Assembly (NCBI GenBank): GCA_015665315.1
Contig: JADFAK010000073.1
Coordinates: 1 to 35,785, forward strand
From: Flavobacteriales bacterium
GTDB taxonomy: Bacteria; Bacteroidota; Bacteroidia; Flavobacteriales_D; Sanyastnellaceae
Direction of reading: 5' to 3'
DNA: 35,785 bases
The notes below the pieces were generated by a model, which was not told where the DNA came from, ran no database searches, and was given only the letters and a program-made list of their open reading frames with translations. Within the stretch, counting starts at the first letter, position 1. Every line of letters starts with the position of its first letter. Of this stretch, positions 10,624 to 18,218 are shown one piece after another. The translations under genes were made by a program, and so were the position numbers.

Positions 10624-12762
10624 ATGGAAAAAGTACTGCTCAAACATTTCGGATACTCAACATTCAGACCTCAACAGAAAGAGATTATTTCTGACGTATT
10701 GGAAGGAAAAGATGTCTTAGCTCTCATGCCTACTGGTGGTGGCAAGTCGATTTGCTACCAACTTCCCGCTATGATCCTACCAGGCTTGACTGTTGTCATC
10801 TCTCCTTTGATAGCTTTGATGAAAGATCAAGTCGAATCTCTGAAACAAAATGGTATCGAAGCTGAATACCTCAATTCAACGCAGACACCCAAGGAGCAAC
10901 AAATCATTGAAGCCCAAGTACGTGCCGGGGTTGTCAAACTGCTGTACGTAGCTCCTGAGCGACTTTTCTCTGGAGCCGAGCCTTTGATTCACGACTTATC
11001 AGACTTCAATATTAGTCTGTTTGCCATTGACGAAGCTCACTGCATATCGCATTGGGGCCATGACTTCCGACCTGAGTACTTGAAGCTAGCCATGCTTAAA
11101 AACCTGTATCCCAAAGTTCCAGTGATAGCCCTCACAGCGACCGCCGATAAGCGCACGCGTGATGATATGGTGAAGAACCTAGCTCTAGTTGAACCGGGGA
11201 TATTCATATCTAGTTTCGATCGTGAGAACATTAGCTACTTTATCGAACAAAAGCAGAACAGCAAGGATCGCCTGCTCAAGTTCCTTTCCAATCACAATAC
11301 CGACTCAGGAATTATTTACACCCTAGCTAGAAAGACTACCGAACAATTGGCCGACTGGCTAACATCCTATGGGTTTAGTGCCTTGCCATATCACGCTGGT
11401 CTGGACCCGAAGAAAAGGGCCAAGAATCAAGAGTTGTTCATCCGCGACGAAGTTAAGATCATCGTTGCTACCATAGCATTCGGAATGGGTATCGACAAAA
11501 GCAATGTGCGCTTTATTGTCCACTGGAATTTACCCAAGAACATTGAAGGATACTACCAGGAAACTGGTCGTGCTGGACGAGATGGAATGCCAAGTGAAGC
11601 ACTTCTGTTTTTTAGCCGAGGCGATGCCCACATGTTGCGTCAGTTCATTAGTGATATGGACGACCAAGAGCAGCAAGACATCCTCTATAAGAAGCTTGAT
11701 CAAATGATCAATTTGTGTGAAACACGCAATTGCAGAAGAAAAACAATCTTGAACTATTTCGATGAGGCCCATGACGGAAATTGCGGCAGCTGCGACATTT
11801 GTTTGGAAAACAACACCTATTTCGATGGAACAGTCATCGCGCAAAAGGCTCTCTCCGCCATCATTCGACTGAAAGAAAACTATGGTACTGGATTTGTTGT
11901 TGACTTTCTACGCGGCTCCAAATCTGAAAAAATCAAGTCCTACCACCGCCAAATTAAGACCTATGGCGTCGGTGCCGATCTCTCAAAAGACGATTGGTTC
12001 AAGCATATTCGCAGTATGATTGATCAAGGACTCATCCAAATTGCTGAAGGCAAATACCCTGTTCTTAAGATCACCCAAAATGGTGCCCAGGTCCTCGCAG
12101 GAAAACGAAATGTTAGTTTGACAGCCATTGAAGAACGAGCATCAAACAAAGTCGTGAAAGATCAAAATACCATCTCCCTTTTCAACCATTTAAAAACAAT
12201 TAGAAAAGAAATAGCGACAAGCGCAAATGTTGCGGCCTACATGGTGCTTTCTGATAAAACTTTAGATGAACTAGCTTCCTTCCGCCCCTTTAAGCTTGAA
12301 CAGATAACAGCCATTTCAGGGTTTGGTGAAGTCAAAGCTGCAAAATATGGCGAGCGTTTTACAGAAGAAATTAAAGCTTACTGCAACGAAAATGGACTGG
12401 AGTCCAATATGAAAGCCAACACTCGGCCAGTGCGCGTTCCGAAAAAACGGAAGAAACCCACTTCAGTTAGTCCCACCGTTATAACGACGCTTGAACATTT
12501 CGAAAACGGATTGGATTACCAGGCTATTTCATCGAAAAGAGGCATGACTGAAGCGACAATTCTCAATCACCTTTGCCAGCTCATAGAATATCAAAAAATC
12601 AAAGTGGATGATGTTATTTCGCCTGAAACAATCGCCTCAATCGCTCCAGTAATTGACCCGAAAAAAGTCCAATCCCTCACAGAAATCCGCGAGCAGTTGA
12701 ACAACAAGTATTCATTTGAAGAAATCAAACTTGTGCGATCCAGCCTTAGCTTTCCTCATTGA
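10624..12762 (+). CDS. recQ: ATP-dependent DNA helicase RecQ (zinc-site intact)
   Basis: 712 residues. Superfamily 2 helicase motifs: FRPQQKEII (motif 0), [15 protein letters not shown] (Walker A), [20 protein letters not shown] (DEAH and aromatic-rich loop), ALTATA, and [11 protein letters not shown] with [10 protein letters not shown] (motifs V and VI). The RecQ zinc site is complete: NCRRK, then NCGSCDIC (four Cys). A winged-helix RQC region, an HRDC domain (about residues 515-595) and a C-terminal HTH_40-like segment follow. It unwinds DNA 3'-5' in recombination and repair. It differs from the second RecQ at 32525-34720. Its 3' end overlaps the convergent universal stress gene by 17 bases. 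Confidence 0.96.
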
Positions 12763-13552
12763 GAACAAGCAATGGGAAGGATGAGCTAAGCGCCATGCCC
12801 TTTGTAGTACTCGAGGAAAAGATCTTCTCAAAAAAACCGCGTTTACGTCTCACCATCGCCAACATATCGACATCTTGCTGCCGGGCAAAATCGTTTAATT
12901 CTTCCACCACATTCTCACCTAATATTGTATGAAAAACGTGAGGCACATCGTCCAATGCTCCTCTGAAATAATGCTTTTCACTTTTGGAAGAATCTCCGGT
13001 ATCTATGTGAACCACGATCAGCTCTGCACCATATTCAACAACCATATTTAACAATGGCGCAATAGACTTCGGGTCAACTTCGCTCAAATCAGTCGAAAGC
13101 AAAATTCTCTTTGGAATCTTTTGCTCTACATTCTCAGGAACTACAATCATAGGAGAATGAACTTTTTGCGTCACTTGCCACGTATTGCTACCAAATAATT
13201 TGGTTTCAATTTTATCTGCTCCCTTGGTGCCCATTACTATCATCGACACTTTTTCATGCCTTTCCATACGATGAACATTGGTGGCCAAATCACCCTCTTG
13301 AGACTCGTATTCAATCACACGATCCGCAGGCAACAACCCTTCAAACTGACGCTGAAGATCTTTGAGTCCTGAAACAGACTCTTGTCGAAGAATATCTTCA
13401 ATGGACACTAACATACTTGCCCCGGCATGCGGAATGCGGTAAGTATTCAGAATGCAAAATGAATCGGCCGTATTTCGAAACAACTCAAATGCATATTTCG
13501 CAGCAACGGTTGCATTCGCTGAGAAATCGGTCGGTATCAGAATTTTATTCAT
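12746..13552 (-). CDS. Tandem-domain universal stress protein
   Basis: 268 residues, two Usp folds in tandem. The first opens with [21 protein letters not shown] and carries [19 protein letters not shown], a good match to the ATP-binding G-2x-G-9x-GS motif. The second begins about residue 145 with [10 protein letters not shown]; its loop ([17 protein letters not shown]) has lost the glycine pattern, so that half probably does not bind nucleotide. It lies 23 bases downstream of the neighbouring Usp gene on the same strand and is likely co-transcribed under the palindrome-bearing promoter before 14442. Confidence 0.92.
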
Positions 13553-13575
13553 GTTGATCTAGCTCGATAAGTACA

Positions 13576-14442
13576 TTAATCAGGAAAAATGGCTCCTTCA
13601 GAATCCTTGACCTTCGGAATCTTGGTTGTGAACACAGGAAGCTTGCTATGATTGGTTACATCTTCGGCAATACTGCCCTTCAATAAATGACTTAAACCTG
13701 TGCGTCCATGAGTCTCCATGGCTATCAAATCTATGTTGTGCATCTCACAATACTCATTCACCCCGTCCACCAGATCTGTGTGATTATACAAACTTGATGT
13801 ATAGTCTTCTAAGCCCATTTTTTTGGCAAACTGTGAAATCAAATTTTGGCTGTAAAGCGTAGGTTCAAAATTTGTTGGCGTTATGACTTTCAATAAATGG
13901 ATCTTCGAACCAAATATTTGCGCGAAGCGCTTAACCCGATCAAAACCAGCCGAAGACTCACCAAAGAAATTCGACGCGAAAGCGATAGATGCTGGCTTAA
14001 AAACTTCGTGGCGCTTTTTAATTGTAAGAACAGGACAGCTTGCTAAACGAATAACCTTTTCAGCAGTCGAACCGATAAACTGTTCTTGAAAACCCTTGGC
14101 TCCATGTGATCCCATTATGATCATATCCACTTCGTGCTCTAAAGCTTGCTGCGTGATCGTCTCGTAGGCATTGTCAAATTGTACAACCTCTCCCACATTT
14201 ACGCCGTCAAAAAAGGGTTCACTTAAGAGTTTAGCGAATCCCATCTTGGTATATTTCAATAAAAACAAACCCTCAGCGGTGTCTGTTGCTTGACCAAACC
14301 CATCGTTTCTAGAATAATGCGGAATCTCTAAGGCGTGCAATAAATATATCCGAGCACCAGTCTTTTTTGCTATACCAGCCGCTACTTCGGCGGCATGTTT
14401 TGCACATTCAGAAAAATCAGTGGGCACAAGTATCTTCTTCAT
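13576..14442 (-). CDS. Tandem-domain universal stress protein
   Basis: 288 residues from ATG 14442, chosen because MKKILVPTDFSECA is the canonical Usp start; an in-frame start six codons upstream is less likely. Two Usp domains: the first with IIMGSHGAKGFQEQFIGSTA, the second with AMETHGRTGLSHLLKGSIA. Both keep the G-2x-G-9x-G(S/T) nucleotide loop, unlike the downstream paralogue. The upstream gap holds an FNR-like palindrome (14510-14523), which places this operon under the same control as the kinase/regulator operon next door. Such proteins serve survival under oxygen or energy limitation, but the exact role is unknown. Confidence 0.93.
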   Translation of the reverse strand: MKKILVPTDFSECAKHAAEVAAGIAKKTGARIYLLHALEIPHYSRNDGFGQATDTAEGLFLLKYTKMGFAKLLSEPFFDGVNVGEVVQFDNAYETITQQALEHEVDMIIMGSHGAKGFQEQFIGSTAEKVIRLASCPVLTIKKRHEVFKPASIAFASNFFGESSAGFDRVKRFAQIFGSKIHLLKVITPTNFEPTLYSQNLISQFAKKMGLEDYTSSLYNHTDLVDGVNEYCEMHNIDLIAMETHGRTGLSHLLKGSIAEDVTNHSKLPVFTTKIPKVKDSEGAIFPD

Positions 14443-14473
14443 CTCTATTCTTTTGCTCAAAGAACCAACACTT

Positions 14474-14481
14474 CAAATCGA
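14474..14481 (-). promoter_or_regulatory. Candidate -7 box TCGATTTG for Usp operon
   Basis: One mismatch to TAnnTTTG on the minus strand, 31 bases upstream of ATG 14442. Its last G is 42.5 bases from the centre of the FNR-like palindrome, a class II-like distance. A weaker alternative, GTTCTTTG at 14458-14465, lies 58.5 bases from it. Confidence 0.35.
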
Positions 14482-14509
14482 ATGACATTGAGCCATAGCA
14501 CAGCTCTGT

Positions 14510-14523
14510 CTGACTTTTATCAG
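14510..14523. promoter_or_regulatory. FNR/Crp-type palindrome C, CTGACTTTTATCAG, before Usp operon
   Basis: TGAC-TTTT-ATCA fits TGAY-N4-RTCA, the half-site geometry of FNR family operators (TTGAT-N4-ATCAA). It sits between the terminator of the upstream operon and the Usp start. The same pattern recurs at 15474-15487 and 18205-18218. Probable binding site of the receiver-Crp protein encoded at 15484-16548. Confidence 0.6.
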
Positions 14524-14530
14524 TTTTTAC

Positions 14531-14564
14531 AAAAAAACCGTCTCAAATTTCTTCGAGACGGTTT
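14531..14564 (-). terminator. Rho-independent terminator of kinase/regulator operon
   Basis: A perfect 10-bp stem AAACCGTCTC/GAGACGGTTT with a 10-base loop, followed on the minus strand by seven T residues. It begins 22 bases after the stop of the last gene (14586) and separates that operon from the Usp operon. Confidence 0.9.
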
Positions 14565-14585
14565 CATTATCTGATTAATTGCAGT

Positions 14586-14990
14586 TTACATGCGTTTTCT
14601 TAAGAAGTCTAGAAACTCCTTTTTCAATTCAAACCAAATCTTTCCAAAAATCGCCATGCGATCTTCTAATTCTCCATGATTTTTAAAATGGACATGATCA
14701 GTTGCTACCGGGTGATCCTTGGCGAACTCAACCAACACTTTTTCGTGCAACTTGATATCGTGAATGAGTGTATCGATCACCTCAGATTCCCGAATAAATT
14801 GATTTTGGAAATGTTCAACTTCAGCCCTTACCTCATGCTTCGTATTTTGGATACTCACTTCGGCCAATCTGGTCTTAAAAATCCTGAGCTCGACTTCAAA
14901 GAATCGAAGTTGATTCACCCATAATTCATGATCAAAATGTAGTTCCGACATGTATCGTCGTTCTTCAACTGGAATTTTTTCTGTGTTCAT
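14586..14990 (-). CDS. Small His/Glu-rich helical protein of unknown function
   Basis: 134 residues from ATG 14990, which lies 11 bases after the stop of the upstream gene; an in-frame TTG five codons earlier would overlap that stop. No signal or membrane helix. The sequence is mostly charged helices with regularly placed His and Glu: SELHFDHELWVNQLRFFEVEL, EVEHFQNQF, IDTLIHDIKLHEKVL, DHVHFKNHGELEDRM. The layout suggests a four-helix bundle, possibly metal binding, but it is not a recognisable hemerythrin. I have seen similar proteins near Usp genes in Bacteroidota, but no function is known to me. Last gene before the terminator. Confidence 0.75.
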   Translation of the reverse strand: MNTEKIPVEERRYMSELHFDHELWVNQLRFFEVELRIFKTRLAEVSIQNTKHEVRAEVEHFQNQFIRESEVIDTLIHDIKLHEKVLVEFAKDHPVATDHVHFKNHGELEDRMAIFGKIWFELKKEFLDFLRKRM

Positions 14991-15001
14991 ATCAATTGAT
15001 T

Positions 15002-15367
15002 TCAAATAGATTCAAATTCTTCCGATTCTTGTTTTACTTTTTCCAAAGTCCAATTGTCGCTTACCGTACTTTCCAGCCACAACTTTCCAGACTTCCGAAA
15101 AATCTGGACGTTTAAACCAAAATAGTCCTGCAATTTGGCCTCTAACTCATATACTAAAGTCGATTGATCAAATTCTATAGTTCCGTGGTCATGCCCCTTT
15201 ATCAAGTCGGCAATCTGGACATTTCCCTCAATCATATCAGTTTTTGGAGAGCCTTCTCCCTGAGCATGTGAATGATGGAAAAATTCGATCTTCATGAAAG
15301 GCACAAGCTGGTGAAAAGCCTCTTTAACTTGTCCCAATGTTTGCTCTGATGTGATTTTTAGCTTCAT
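15002..15367 (-). CDS. Small conserved protein of unknown function in kinase/regulator operon
   Basis: 121 residues from ATG 15367; a GTG 15 codons upstream is possible but would be almost at the predicted transcript start. The N-terminal half has LGQVKEAFHQLVPFMKIEFFHH, a His-rich stretch, and NVQIADLIKGHDHGTIEFD. The C-terminal half (LVYELEAKLQDYFGLNVQIFRKSGKLWLESTVSDNWTLEKV) has an alternating strand-helix pattern suggesting a small alpha/beta fold. No signal peptide. It follows the response regulator gene after 116 bases that contain a palindrome and a -7 box, so it can be transcribed alone with the next gene. Function unknown. Confidence 0.75.
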   Translation of the reverse strand: MKLKITSEQTLGQVKEAFHQLVPFMKIEFFHHSHAQGEGSPKTDMIEGNVQIADLIKGHDHGTIEFDQSTLVYELEAKLQDYFGLNVQIFRKSGKLWLESTVSDNWTLEKVKQESEEFESI

Positions 15368-15420
15368 CTTATAAAGATTAATAAATTCAAATAAGCGGTA
15401 TTCTCGTCCCACTCACTTCC

Positions 15421-15428
15421 CAAATTTA
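15421..15428 (-). promoter_or_regulatory. -7 promoter box TAAATTTG before the two small unknown genes
   Basis: Exact TAnnTTTG match on the minus strand, 53 bases before ATG 15367. No -33 motif is visible, as expected for an activator-dependent promoter. The palindrome centre lies 59.5 bases upstream of the last G, roughly -63 from the expected start, which is close to a class I Crp/Fnr position. Confidence 0.6.
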
Positions 15429-15473
15429 TTCGAAACTCCCCTATAAATAGGCGTCATCCATCATGCTCCAATT

Positions 15474-15487
15474 ATGACGCAAGTCAT
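15474..15487. promoter_or_regulatory. FNR/Crp-type palindrome B, ATGACGCAAGTCAT
   Basis: The core is TGAC-GCAA-GTCA. The symmetry extends three further bases on each side (ATT...AAT), giving 8-bp arms around 4 bases (15471-15490). It overlaps the stop codon of the response regulator gene and precedes the promoter of the two small genes. Confidence 0.7.
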
Positions 15488-16548
15488 AATCCTACAACTT
15501 GTCGCAATCCTTCAGGATCTACTACGACAATTTCTCGGCCTTGAACTTTGATAAAACCTTCTTCTTTGAAATCACTGAGCTGACGAATAAGACTCTCAGT
15601 CGCGGTACCAACTATGGAGGCCAAGTCTTCCCGACTAAATCGTATTCCCTGATTTGTTTCAGCCTGCGCGTTGAATTGATTATGCAGATTGAGCAAGGTA
15701 TAAGCAACACGCTCCCGCACAGGTGAATAAGCCAATTGAAGAAGTCTTTCTTCCTTCTCTTTCACGTTGTTGGCAAGCATCCGAATAAAAGTAGTTGCCA
15801 CATCACGGTTCTTTTGGATCAAGCTTAAAAAGTCATTCCTTGGAATCACCGACAACACGCAATCTTCCAATGCCGTCGCAGTTTCAATATGGTCCTCTCC
15901 TTCCAATAATCCCATATATCCGACAAACTCGCCTTCATTGAAAATGTCGGTAACCAAGTCTTTTCCGTAATCATCCGTTTTAGCACATTTAACCTTGCCC
16001 GAGGCGATGAAATAAAGATAGTTGGCATAATCTCCTTCCCTAAAGATGGTCTCCTTCTTTTTGAATGCTTTTTTTCTTCTCTCCTTCGAAAGCTCCTGTA
16101 AGTCAGACAATCCCCGCGCATGGTCAATAAAGGAATCAATACCCTCCTCAGAAACATCGAAATTCTTCTGCGTTATTTCATTCTTCTTAAATCTGGTTTC
16201 AATTGCATCCAAAAGATCAACCTCATTGAAAGGTTTGGTGAGGTAATCGTCAGCCCCCATGTTCATTCCACGGCGAACATCACTTCTCTCTGTCTTGGCT
16301 GTTAAAAAAATGAACGGAATGGATGCTGTGTCAGGATTCTTGGAGATCATATGAAGCACCCCATAACCATCAAGCTCAGGCATCATGATATCGCATATGA
16401 TTAGATCTGGGAGCCAATCCTTTGCAGCTTCAACTCCCACTTTCCCATTCTCCGCCATGCGCACATCATAGTTAGCCAATTCAAGCATTTCAGCTATGTT
16501 CTCACGCATATCGTGGTTATCCTCTATTAGCAATATTTTTTTCATCAT
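15484..16548 (-). CDS. Response regulator with receiver and Crp/Fnr DNA-binding domains
   Basis: 354 residues. Receiver domain (1-125): acidic pocket IEDN, phospho-acceptor Asp53 in ICDIMMPELDG, FLTAK and LTKPF. A cyclic-nucleotide-binding fold (about 150-270: FREGDYANYLYFIASGKVKC, FNEGEFVGYMGLL) follows, then a Crp winged helix (about 300-345) with RFSREDLASIVGTATESLIRQL. The recognition helix keeps Glu and Arg at the positions that read TGA half-sites in CRP and FNR. The cNMP pocket lacks an obvious RxSA arginine-serine signature, so phosphorylation rather than cAMP is the likely input. The start overlaps the kinase stop by 4 bases. Its likely sites are the TGAY-N4-RTCA palindromes nearby. 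Confidence 0.93.
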   Translation of the reverse strand: MMKKILLIEDNHDMRENIAEMLELANYDVRMAENGKVGVEAAKDWLPDLIICDIMMPELDGYGVLHMISKNPDTASIPFIFLTAKTERSDVRRGMNMGADDYLTKPFNEVDLLDAIETRFKKNEITQKNFDVSEEGIDSFIDHARGLSDLQELSKERRKKAFKKKETIFREGDYANYLYFIASGKVKCAKTDDYGKDLVTDIFNEGEFVGYMGLLEGEDHIETATALEDCVLSVIPRNDFLSLIQKNRDVATTFIRMLANNVKEKEERLLQLAYSPVRERVAYTLLNLHNQFNAQAETNQGIRFSREDLASIVGTATESLIRQLSDFKEEGFIKVQGREIVVVDPEGLRQVVGL

Positions 16549-18095
16549 TTTTCAGTTACGTTCTTCGTTTTCACAGATCTCGGCATCCGCACCTTAAAGC
16601 AGCTTCCCTCTCCAAGCTTACTTGTAAATATGATGTTTCCTTCCATGAGTTCTGTGTATTTCTTGACAATGTTCAAGCCGAGGCCAGTTCCTTGAATATT
16701 AGTGCTGTTCTGAGCTCTGAAAAATCGCTCGAACATATGCTTTTGGTCCTCCTCAGGAATACCAATACCATTGTCCTCCACCTCAATTATCACTTCGTCT
16801 TCAAGCACCTCGGTTCGCAATACAATTTTTCCGTCAGCCGGCGAGTATTTGCAAGCATTTGAAAGTAAATTCAGAATAATATTCTTCACTACCCCAGGGT
16901 CCAATTTCACCTGATTACCTCCTCTATGTTCGTGCGTTATTACCTGTCCTTGACTAGCTATTTGCTGTACTTCATCTTTCGCTTGGCTGGCACATGCGTG
17001 CAAATCAAATGGCGAAATATTCGTCGAAATCTTCCCAGCTTCCAACTTGTCAAGGCTCAGAAAATCGTTCAAAATCTCGGTTAAGCTTTGTACACCATTC
17101 TTAATCCGATTCACATGTTTCATGCGCTTTTCAAGCTGTGAATCATCCTGGTAACGCTCAATCAAAGAAACAGATGACAATATTGTGCTCAATGGCGTGC
17201 GAAATTCATGTGATGCCATGCTTACAAACCTAGATTTCAATTCGTTCAATTGCTTCTCTGCTTCTAGGGTTTTCTGCAACTCCAACTCGGCCTTTTTCTG
17301 ACTCGTTATGTTCTGTTCGACCACCAATATCTGGTCAATTATTCCCTTATCGTTGGGCAGGCCAACTGCCTGCATTACGTAATAATTATCATTCGATTCA
17401 ATTTCAAACTCTGTGTTTTGACCATTGAGAACCGACTGTAATTTTTCTTCTATCGTGTCTTTGACCTTCATCGGAATTCTATCCAAGTAATTGGTCCCGA
17501 TCAAACTTGCACCAGATATACCAGCCTTGTGTAGCTCCATTCCCTCCACAAAAACATAGGTGAAATCTGCATCAAATACATTGATAGTTCCATTTGGGTA
17601 ATGTCGTGCAATCATGCTATGTAAAAGCTGACTCTCCCGGAGCTGATTGGTGCGTTTCTCAACCCGCTGTTCCAATTCCAAGTTAAGCTCAATAATCTTC
17701 TGTTGACTTGCCTTTCTCTCGCTTATGTCTGAAACCAAACACATAATTAAGAACTCACCATCGAATACAAAATGACTCAATCCAATCTCCACAGGGAACT
17801 CTGAACCATCTTTTGCCAAAGCAGTAAGATCCATTCCCTTACCCATAGATCGTGGTCGAGGATCCTTCGCAAAGTCTCCCCTATGACCTTCATGACCATG
17901 GCGATGTTTCTGTGGAACTAAGTCTTCAATTTTCAACGTCTTGAATTCATCTGATGTGTATCCAAATAAGACTTCCGCCTTAGGGTTAACAATTAAAACT
18001 TCTCCCTTCTTATTCGTCACGATTTGGCCCTCCGCTGCTGTTCTGAACAGAACATCGCACATTGCTTCTAGGTTATCGATCCGTATATTTTCCAT
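16545..18095 (-). CDS. Cytoplasmic PAS sensor histidine kinase
   Basis: 516 residues from ATG 18095; an in-frame start 20 codons upstream would precede the likely transcript start. No membrane helix. PAS1 (about 8-130) contains DLVPQKHRHGHEGHRGDF and LAKDGSEFPVEIGLS; a second PAS-like domain (about 165-275: GTINVFDADFTYVFVEG) and a short coiled coil follow. Kinase core: SMASHEFRTPLSTI (His near 295), NLLSNACKYS, VEDNGIGIP, GTGLGLNIVKKY. It should phosphorylate the receiver-Crp regulator encoded immediately downstream with a 4-base overlap. PAS1 has a His at the place of the FixL haem ligand, so a haem or redox sensor is possible but unproven. Confidence 0.92.
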   Translation of the reverse strand: MENIRIDNLEAMCDVLFRTAAEGQIVTNKKGEVLIVNPKAEVLFGYTSDEFKTLKIEDLVPQKHRHGHEGHRGDFAKDPRPRSMGKGMDLTALAKDGSEFPVEIGLSHFVFDGEFLIMCLVSDISERKASQQKIIELNLELEQRVEKRTNQLRESQLLHSMIARHYPNGTINVFDADFTYVFVEGMELHKAGISGASLIGTNYLDRIPMKVKDTIEEKLQSVLNGQNTEFEIESNDNYYVMQAVGLPNDKGIIDQILVVEQNITSQKKAELELQKTLEAEKQLNELKSRFVSMASHEFRTPLSTILSSVSLIERYQDDSQLEKRMKHVNRIKNGVQSLTEILNDFLSLDKLEAGKISTNISPFDLHACASQAKDEVQQIASQGQVITHEHRGGNQVKLDPGVVKNIILNLLSNACKYSPADGKIVLRTEVLEDEVIIEVEDNGIGIPEEDQKHMFERFFRAQNSTNIQGTGLGLNIVKKYTELMEGNIIFTSKLGEGSCFKVRMPRSVKTKNVTEK

Positions 18096-18152
18096 GTGCC
18101 GTTTAATTAGTATGTACTCAATTAAATTGGAGAATTGATCCACGTCACTTCG

Positions 18153-18160
18153 CAAAATTC
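18153..18160 (-). promoter_or_regulatory. -7-like box GAATTTTG for kinase/regulator operon
   Basis: One mismatch to TAnnTTTG on the minus strand, 58 bases upstream of ATG 18095. Its last G lies 58.5 bases from the centre of palindrome A, almost the same geometry as at palindrome B. Confidence 0.45.
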
Positions 18161-18204
18161 AATGACTTTGCTCAGGACCCGCATGAACACTGTCAGCTCC
18201 AATA

Positions 18205-18218
18205 CTGACAAATATCAC
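18205..18218. promoter_or_regulatory. FNR/Crp-type palindrome A, CTGACAAATATCAC, before kinase operon
   Basis: TGAC-AAAT-ATCA fits TGAY-N4-RTCA. It lies between the divergent kinase operon and pheT. It overlaps a second symmetry, TGTCAG(N8)CTGACA (18191-18210), so a different protein could also read this stretch. Confidence 0.6.

Follow-up and report, generated by a model that had tools for sequence, protein, structure and literature searches.

The window analysed here, a stretch of 35,785 nucleotides from a Flavobacteriales bacterium (contig JADFAK010000073.1 of assembly GCA_015665315.1; host genome 4.6 Mb), carries a minus-strand cluster in which a sensor histidine kinase, a response regulator with a Crp-type head, two further proteins and two universal stress proteins (Usp) lie behind FNR-like palindromes. 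We consider it likely that a low-oxygen regulon widespread in Bacteroidota uses these palindromes as its operators and is served by signalling from the kinase to the receiver-Crp protein; through such sites Bacteroidota would probably respond to low oxygen with stress proteins, heme synthesis and high-affinity respiration. We also lean, rather less firmly, towards a broader reading: that the sites belong to an undescribed Bacteroidota low-oxygen promoter code of two FNR-like boxes, 22-23 bp apart, with centres at about -63.5 and -41.5 of TAnnTTTG promoters. A heme kinase with its receiver-Crp partner and a standalone sister with cysteines may be interchangeable readers of this code, the oxygen sensor being swapped and the operators and targets kept.

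Paired palindromes at a fixed distance from the promoter

The sequence-only reading of the window had described three palindromes of the form TGAY-N4-RTCA, one in each main gap of the cluster. Searching with this strict motif returned them at 14511-14522, 15475-15486 and 18206-18217, and the other gaps of the window were free of it as claimed, the remaining strict matches at 1881, 10787 and 27991 all lying inside open reading frames (ORFs). A fourth match, at 18136-18147, had been overlooked; with no promoter box at either 36.5 or 58.5, it is probably a chance occurrence. We rejected it as a repressor site, as no box stands at the right distance and the same-genus locus L042 has no strict match there. 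Also overlooked was a degenerate second palindrome, 22 or 23 bp (roughly two turns of the helix) downstream of the first in each of the three gaps, so that each reported site is the better member of a pair.

At the kinase-regulator promoter, the distal palindrome TGATATTTGTCA (18206-18217, no mismatches) is followed 22 bp downstream by the proximal box TGACAGTGTTCA (18184-18195, 1 mismatch), and the last G of the -7 box GAATTTTG (18153-18160, 5/6 of TAnnTTTG) lies 58.5 from the distal centre. The promoter of a small ubiquitin-like gene has the distal palindrome TGACTTGCGTCA (15475-15486), a degenerate proximal box TGATGGATGACG (15452-15463, 2 mismatches) 23 bp downstream and a -7 box TAAATTTG (15421-15428) with a 6/6 match; here the last G is 59.5 from the distal centre, a spacing exactly compensated by the 23 bp separation of the boxes. 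At the Usp promoter the distal palindrome TGATAAAAGTCA (14511-14522) and the degenerate proximal box TGCTATGGCTCA (14489-14500, 2 mismatches) are again 22 bp apart, with a 4/6 -7 box GTTCTTTG (14458-14465) at 58.5; the alternative box TCGATTTG, at 42.5, is the better match (5/6). These spacings (58.5 for the kinase, 59.5 for the ubiquitin-like gene, 58.5 or 42.5 for Usp) bear out those originally proposed, and it is 58.5 and 59.5 that the comparative loci single out.

Could the palindromes be chance, and their spacing a product of the reader's selection? The whole-window count offers this idea some comfort, since seven strict matches against 3.76 expected is not significant, being equalled by 8 of 100 dinucleotide shuffles. 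Their concentration is another matter, with 3 matches per 2,058 gap bases against 4 per 33.7 kb of ORFs (of at least 90 amino acids), giving a Poisson p of 0.002-0.015 that varies with the background chosen. A combined rule (two boxes 22-23 apart with at most two mismatches in total and, 36.5 from the centre of the proximal one, a -7 box scoring 4/6 or better), its thresholds chosen after the window had been inspected, found the three cluster promoters as the sole hits on both window strands; first-order Markov sequences yielded 0.05 hits per window, with a maximum of 2 in 200.

The sequence-only reading had staked its claim on conservation of the palindromes in orthologous gaps, and conserved they are. 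Across 18 kb of the window and 40 regulator loci from relatives, there were 67 matches in 40.3 kb of gap versus 57 in 565 kb of ORFs. Read by eye in the closest loci (L042-L048), a strict match is present in the Usp gap in 6/7 and in the stretch behind the regulator gene in 5/7; the kinase/pheT gap is intact in six of these loci, four of which have a strict match there. The same-genus L042 has a box pair in each of these positions, set at 58.5 or 59.5 and at 36.5; only its distal kinase box is free of mismatches, and the remaining five each have one, a tolerance that also admits chance matches.

A second set of 79 further loci around regulator orthologs was submitted to the same measures (L160 was excluded, being from the same-genus genome already used as L042). 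These loci are related and do not count as independent events; judging by their titles they span several orders. They held 214 matches in 124.5 kb of gap (1.72/kb) versus 114 in 1,142 kb of ORFs (0.100/kb), a 17-fold higher density in gaps, and a reversed control motif gave 2 in gaps (0.016/kb) and 32 in ORFs. When the offset to the last G of a TAnnTTTG-like box (at least 5/6) was measured for 268 site-gene pairs, 80 fell at 58.5, 63 at 36.5 and 18 at 59.5, with 0-9 at each remaining offset; a box at one or other of these three positions accompanies 153 pairs. The first locus set, which includes the window and its own genome, gave 30/85 at 58.5.

The claim of one palindrome per promoter needs amending: the sites themselves are real, and the usual operator is a tandem pair. 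For 96 sites at 58.5/59.5, a second palindrome with up to two mismatches was found at 22 bp in 72 and at 23 bp in 12; allowing one mismatch, the counts were 52 and 11, and the rest of the 12-59 range gave a single case. In Flavobacterium psychrophilum, TAnnTTTG has been mapped to -12 to -5 (PMC9723704), which sets the palindrome centres near -63.5 and -41.5. The combined rule gave 134 gap hits in the 79 loci, with at least one in 59 of them; in the first 20 loci it scored 45 real hits versus none in five Markov runs. Applied to 385 kb of other DNA from the own genome, a sample partly overlapping and partly picked around known hits, it found ccoS-ccoNO, hemN and a third Usp gene and nothing else. 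The 79-locus set, the reversed control, the 22-bp register and the cco promoters described below contradict the chance explanation, to which we attach a negligible probability.

Genes behind the boxes

The cluster had been called a self-contained regulon, and this part of the claim fell: in the own genome, boxes also precede ccoS-ccoNO, ccoG, hemN, hemA, the third Usp gene, an MBL-rhodanese gene and a TrhO-like gene (Usp and MBL-rhodanese partly assigned by eye). The ccoS-ccoNO promoter has no mismatches in either box. Several further strict matches of this genome are inside ORFs or before unrelated genes. Within the cluster, the conserved box before the kinase-regulator operon is consistent with the proposal that the system drives itself, and the Usp genes and the two uncharacterised cluster proteins are likely targets, as had been suggested.

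Because the box marks the cbb3 oxidase and heme genes, a microaerobic logic is supported. The ccoNO gene (E <= 1e-100) was present in 40/100 genomes, from which upstream stretches of 37 relatives and of the own genome were taken (the partial matches in G085 and G072 were left out, and G035 offered just 41 bp). The motif occurred in 36/37 of the relatives' upstreams and the reversed control in 2/37; the full tandem with promoter box was present in 32 of the 36 that had 450 bp. In F. psychrophilum, oxygen limitation is reported to raise expression of cbb3 and heme synthesis (PMC9723704). Among the 60 otherwise unnamed box-plus-promoter targets of the 79 loci, the largest clusters, each named from a single representative, were P-type metal ATPases (7), Usp (6), DoxX-like proteins (4), ScdA/hemerythrin (3) and cytochrome c (3). 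The small ubiquitin-like family, with 30 related ORFs among the fetched loci, is a recurrent neighbour of the box (13 site-gene pairs).

A candidate reader protein

The response regulator (15484-16548) consists of a receiver (PF00072, 6.4e-28), a cNMP-binding-like domain (PF00027, 1.6e-24) and a Crp winged helix (PF13545, 7.1e-17), which places it in the Crp/FNR superfamily; Pfam shows no output domain other than the Crp head. Asp53 of the receiver is invariant in 16/16 aligned regulators, and so are Glu318 and Arg322 of the recognition helix, in agreement with the Glu and Arg that the sequence-only reading had picked out there. It is not FNR proper, which has an N-terminal cysteine cluster for a [4Fe-4S] centre: the aligned regulator lacks the CxxC that is seen in 15 of 18 standalone sister Crps. 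We regard the receiver-Crp fusion as plausibly the protein that reads the boxes.

The distribution of the genes is consistent with this. Fusion orthologs (E <= 1e-60) occur in 49/100 genomes, own included, and ccoNO was found in 28/49 genomes with a fusion, in 10/18 with a standalone Crp relative and in 2/33 with neither (Fisher p 3.5e-7, indicative only, the genomes being related). The "neither" group is defined by E-value cut-offs and is unclean, as Crp fragments or frames with the helix exist in G016, G068 and G072; after moving these three, ccoNO is present in 39/70 genomes with a reader candidate versus 1/30 without. The single ccoNO genome left without a reader, G041, is 69% complete, and its congeners G011 and G030 have the fusion. 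These frames or fragments are those of G016 (L260), G068 (L259) and G072 (L258, L266), and the G016 frame (406 amino acids) resembles the fusion of its congener G033. A fusion or standalone candidate was found in 38/40 ccoNO-bearing genomes, and in 24 of those 38 it lies within 12 kb of ccoNO.

The standalone Crps (n=18) have an N-terminal CxxC in 15 cases and the exact helix GTATE(S/T)LIR in 10; among the ten from ccoNO genomes that lack the fusion, CxxC is present in 10/10, the exact helix in 8/10 and a one-residue difference in the other 2. In a tree of a subset of heads (35 from fusions, 18 standalone and 4 others), fusion heads and standalone heads each fall on one side of a branch (support 91/94 and 83/93); with three fusion rows less than half complete and a number of long branches, we count this as moderate evidence. 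In eight loci (L241, L243, L245-L248, L250 and L251), standalone Crp genes have box pairs close by at a spacing of exactly 22 bp, which suggests that the same code operates under an FNR-like reader.

Two more Crp proteins are encoded in the genome and could share the boxes: a 228-residue protein of what we call the C19 type, with the helix SSREVISRLLKKM, and one of 209 residues. If either were the true reader, the receiver-Crp protein would be a mere target or would bind another motif. The C19-type helix does retain Glu and Arg, its gene correlates with ccoNO (33/60 carriers versus 7/40 non-carriers), and a motif excess exists in genomes that have no fusion. However, C19 was not found (E <= 1e-40) in 7/40 ccoNO genomes, five of which (G026, G044, G070, G088 and G089) have both fusion and box, with the caveat that G026, G044 and G089 are just 71-83% complete; it lies within 12 kb of ccoNO in 0/33 genomes, versus 24/38 for fusion or standalone genes; and standalone Crp genes that share the helix of the fusion are flanked by 22-bp box pairs. 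Since the C19 type was not found in five genomes with fusion and box, and is never within 12 kb of ccoNO, the fusion is the best reader candidate, and we regard another Crp/FNR reader as improbable.

The sensor kinase, the signal and related systems

The kinase has two PAS domains (the first, PAS1, FixL/DosP-like), HisKA and HATPase_c, and the Pfam domains support the original view of a FixL-like kinase beside a receiver-Crp regulator. Its ORF opens at TTG 18155, ahead of the position (near 18148) where the box would place the start of transcription, so ATG 18095 is the likelier start and the gene likely runs from 16545 to 18095; residue numbers here follow the ORF from TTG 18155. All 14 matches of PAS1 to solved chains at E <= 0.01 are to FixL, DosP/YddU or FG214 (10jx), the last a heme PAS. 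His88 aligns with the FixL/DosP His column, which we take to be the heme ligand, and His occupies it in 66 of the 69 kinases having a residue there (73 kinases, 4 gaps). In the AlphaFold model (predicted local distance difference test, pLDDT, 95.5), the 22 best PDB matches are FixL, FG214 and DosP heme PAS chains; LOV domains follow close behind, so the fold alone is no proof of heme. From alignment and model, PAS1 appears to be a FixL/DosP-type PAS domain with the proximal His column. In FG214, His156 is assigned as proximal and His175 as distal ligand, with Met172 possible (PMC13060918); His88 aligns with His156 and Met104 (kept in 46/69 kinases) with Met172, and the window residue in the His175 column is Gly107.

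Given the boxes, their spacing and conservation and the genes behind them, we infer a mechanism in which PAS1 would bind heme through His88 and sense oxygen, or a redox state set by it. Falling oxygen would lead the kinase to phosphorylate Asp53 of the receiver-Crp protein, which would then bind, as two adjacent dimers, to the boxes 22-23 bp apart (about -63.5 and -41.5) and recruit RNA polymerase to TAnnTTTG promoters, so acting by activation rather than repression. Its targets in the cluster would be its own operon, the operon of the two uncharacterised proteins and the two Usp genes; elsewhere they would be the cbb3 oxidase, CcoG, HemN, HemA, a further Usp and sulfur-transfer-like genes.

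Several results weigh against this picture. No gap tandem was found in 20/79 loci, 22 tandem hits are inside called ORFs, and for 115/268 site-gene pairs none of the offsets 36.5, 58.5 and 59.5 holds a box. A strict hemN box is present in just 6/12 fusion-bearing genomes; compared with 0/7 "no reader" genomes (p 0.044; 0/6 and p 0.054 without the misplaced G016), this gives weak support to the link between box and fusion, hemN matches existing in 12/36 (own included) and 7/31 genomes only. An excess of the motif over the reversed control is seen with the fusion (540 vs 141, 49 genomes) and also without it (421 vs 121, 51 genomes), an excess for which the standalone Crps account only in part, and in the own genome CTGAYNNNNRTCAG is without global excess (11 vs 14 for the control). 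The reversed control is itself about threefold too low (in coding DNA, 42 for the motif and 14 for the control); as the motif beats it 3:1 even there, we relied instead on the gap/gene contrast and the promoter register. The comparison of whole-genome counts between fusion-bearing and fusion-lacking genomes was weak and was abandoned. Finally, the position of the distal Arg of FixL (R220), which serves oxygen regulation there, is Met108 in the window kinase and variable in relatives (R 25, M 17 of 69).

This last point also favours a real system with a different signal, be it NO, CO, heme or redox state at the kinase or some ligand of the cNMP-like domain, and with a regulon that answers nitrosative or sulfur stress. 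Heme PAS domains bind several gases, and the box-bearing genes include ScdA/hemerythrin, MBL-rhodanese and rhodanese-like proteins. The closest solved PAS, that of FG214, is mainly bis-His and switches with redox state (PMC13060918), which points the same way. The most constant box-bearing gene is nevertheless the high-affinity cbb3 oxidase (36/37), together with heme synthesis, CcoG and P-type metal ATPases. These make up the classic low-oxygen set, and we hold a different signal to be unlikely, if a more serious contender than another reader.

The compressed FixL-FixJ-FixK-like circuit envisaged by the sequence-only reading survives in its kinase, its receiver-Crp fusion and its microaerobic logic, and not as a closed regulon limited to the cluster. 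The components and logic are already known from FixL/FixK and FNR. The DosS/DosT-DosR system of mycobacteria likewise combines a heme kinase with usp genes in a hypoxia regulon; its GAF heme and NarL-type regulator differ from the window system. FNR, ANR and FnrN, one-component Fe-S regulators, share the core palindrome and the cbb3 target, and the N-terminal CxxC with most standalone sisters; the window regulator, in contrast, has a receiver and no CxxC, so that oxygen sensing would fall to the kinase. The TGAT/C-N4-A/GTCA palindrome before cbb3 genes, seen in the relatives and in the own genome, is itself of FNR/FixK type. The rhizobial FixL-FixJ-FixK and hFixL-FxkR-FixK systems have a FixL-type PAS kinase, a response regulator, a Crp/FNR output, TTGAT-N4-ATCAA-like boxes and cbb3 targets (PMC7888657). 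FixL-FixJ-FixK has separate proteins for response regulator and FixK, with two DNA steps; here a single protein has both receiver and Crp head. The activating anaeroboxes listed for R. leguminosarum stand at -32 to -34, and fnrN alone has a second one, which represses (PMC7888657), in contrast to the tandem near -63.5/-41.5 on a TAnnTTTG promoter here. NmpRSTU of Myxococcus xanthus, a two-component oxygen-utilisation regulon reported to be started by a heme-dependent kinase, differs in having an NtrC-like regulator and a phosphorelay and no Crp head (PMC11841059).

What is new, as far as we can judge, is a cbb3 regulator with receiver and Crp head fused, the strictness of the double box, and the exchange of fusion for standalone reader. 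Among the hits listed by our search of the open-access literature, no title or abstract described such a Bacteroidota regulon; subscription papers lay outside it, and a description may be in print. The switch of aerobic Bacteroidota of sea, soil and wastewater to high-affinity respiration is poorly described, and a promoter code this strict would allow genome-wide prediction of their low-oxygen regulons, give a role to a large group of Crp-type response regulators (at least 577 related stretches), place two unknown-protein families in context and serve as a natural example of a sensor replaced while its operator stayed fixed.

The first of those two families is represented by the small protein at 15002-15367, whose ORF extends to GTG 15412 and whose start is probably ATG 15367. 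Its resemblance to ubiquitin is weak (a ubiquitin-family Pfam match at E 0.008, below cut-off); the alpha/beta AlphaFold model is confident (pLDDT 93.4), and a fold search with it gave no matches at E <= 0.001. The second is a 139-residue protein (14586-15005), overlapping the end of the preceding ubiquitin-like gene, for which there was no Pfam match at E <= 0.01; in L049 and L066 its relative is divergent from the kinase, with boxes in between. The Usp pair follows, each member having two Usp stretches (PF00582): the first at 13576-14460, with its start probably at ATG 14442, and the second at 12746-13552.

Two further observations concern the regulator orthologs. In four loci of one genus (g10; L068, L069, L070 and L072) the regulator is found beside pheT with no recognised adjoining kinase, possibly an orphan version. 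Close homologs also occur in contigs titled Alphaproteobacteria, Deltaproteobacteria and Bacteriovoracaceae (L177, L195 and L204), which may reflect either misbinned contigs or transfer.

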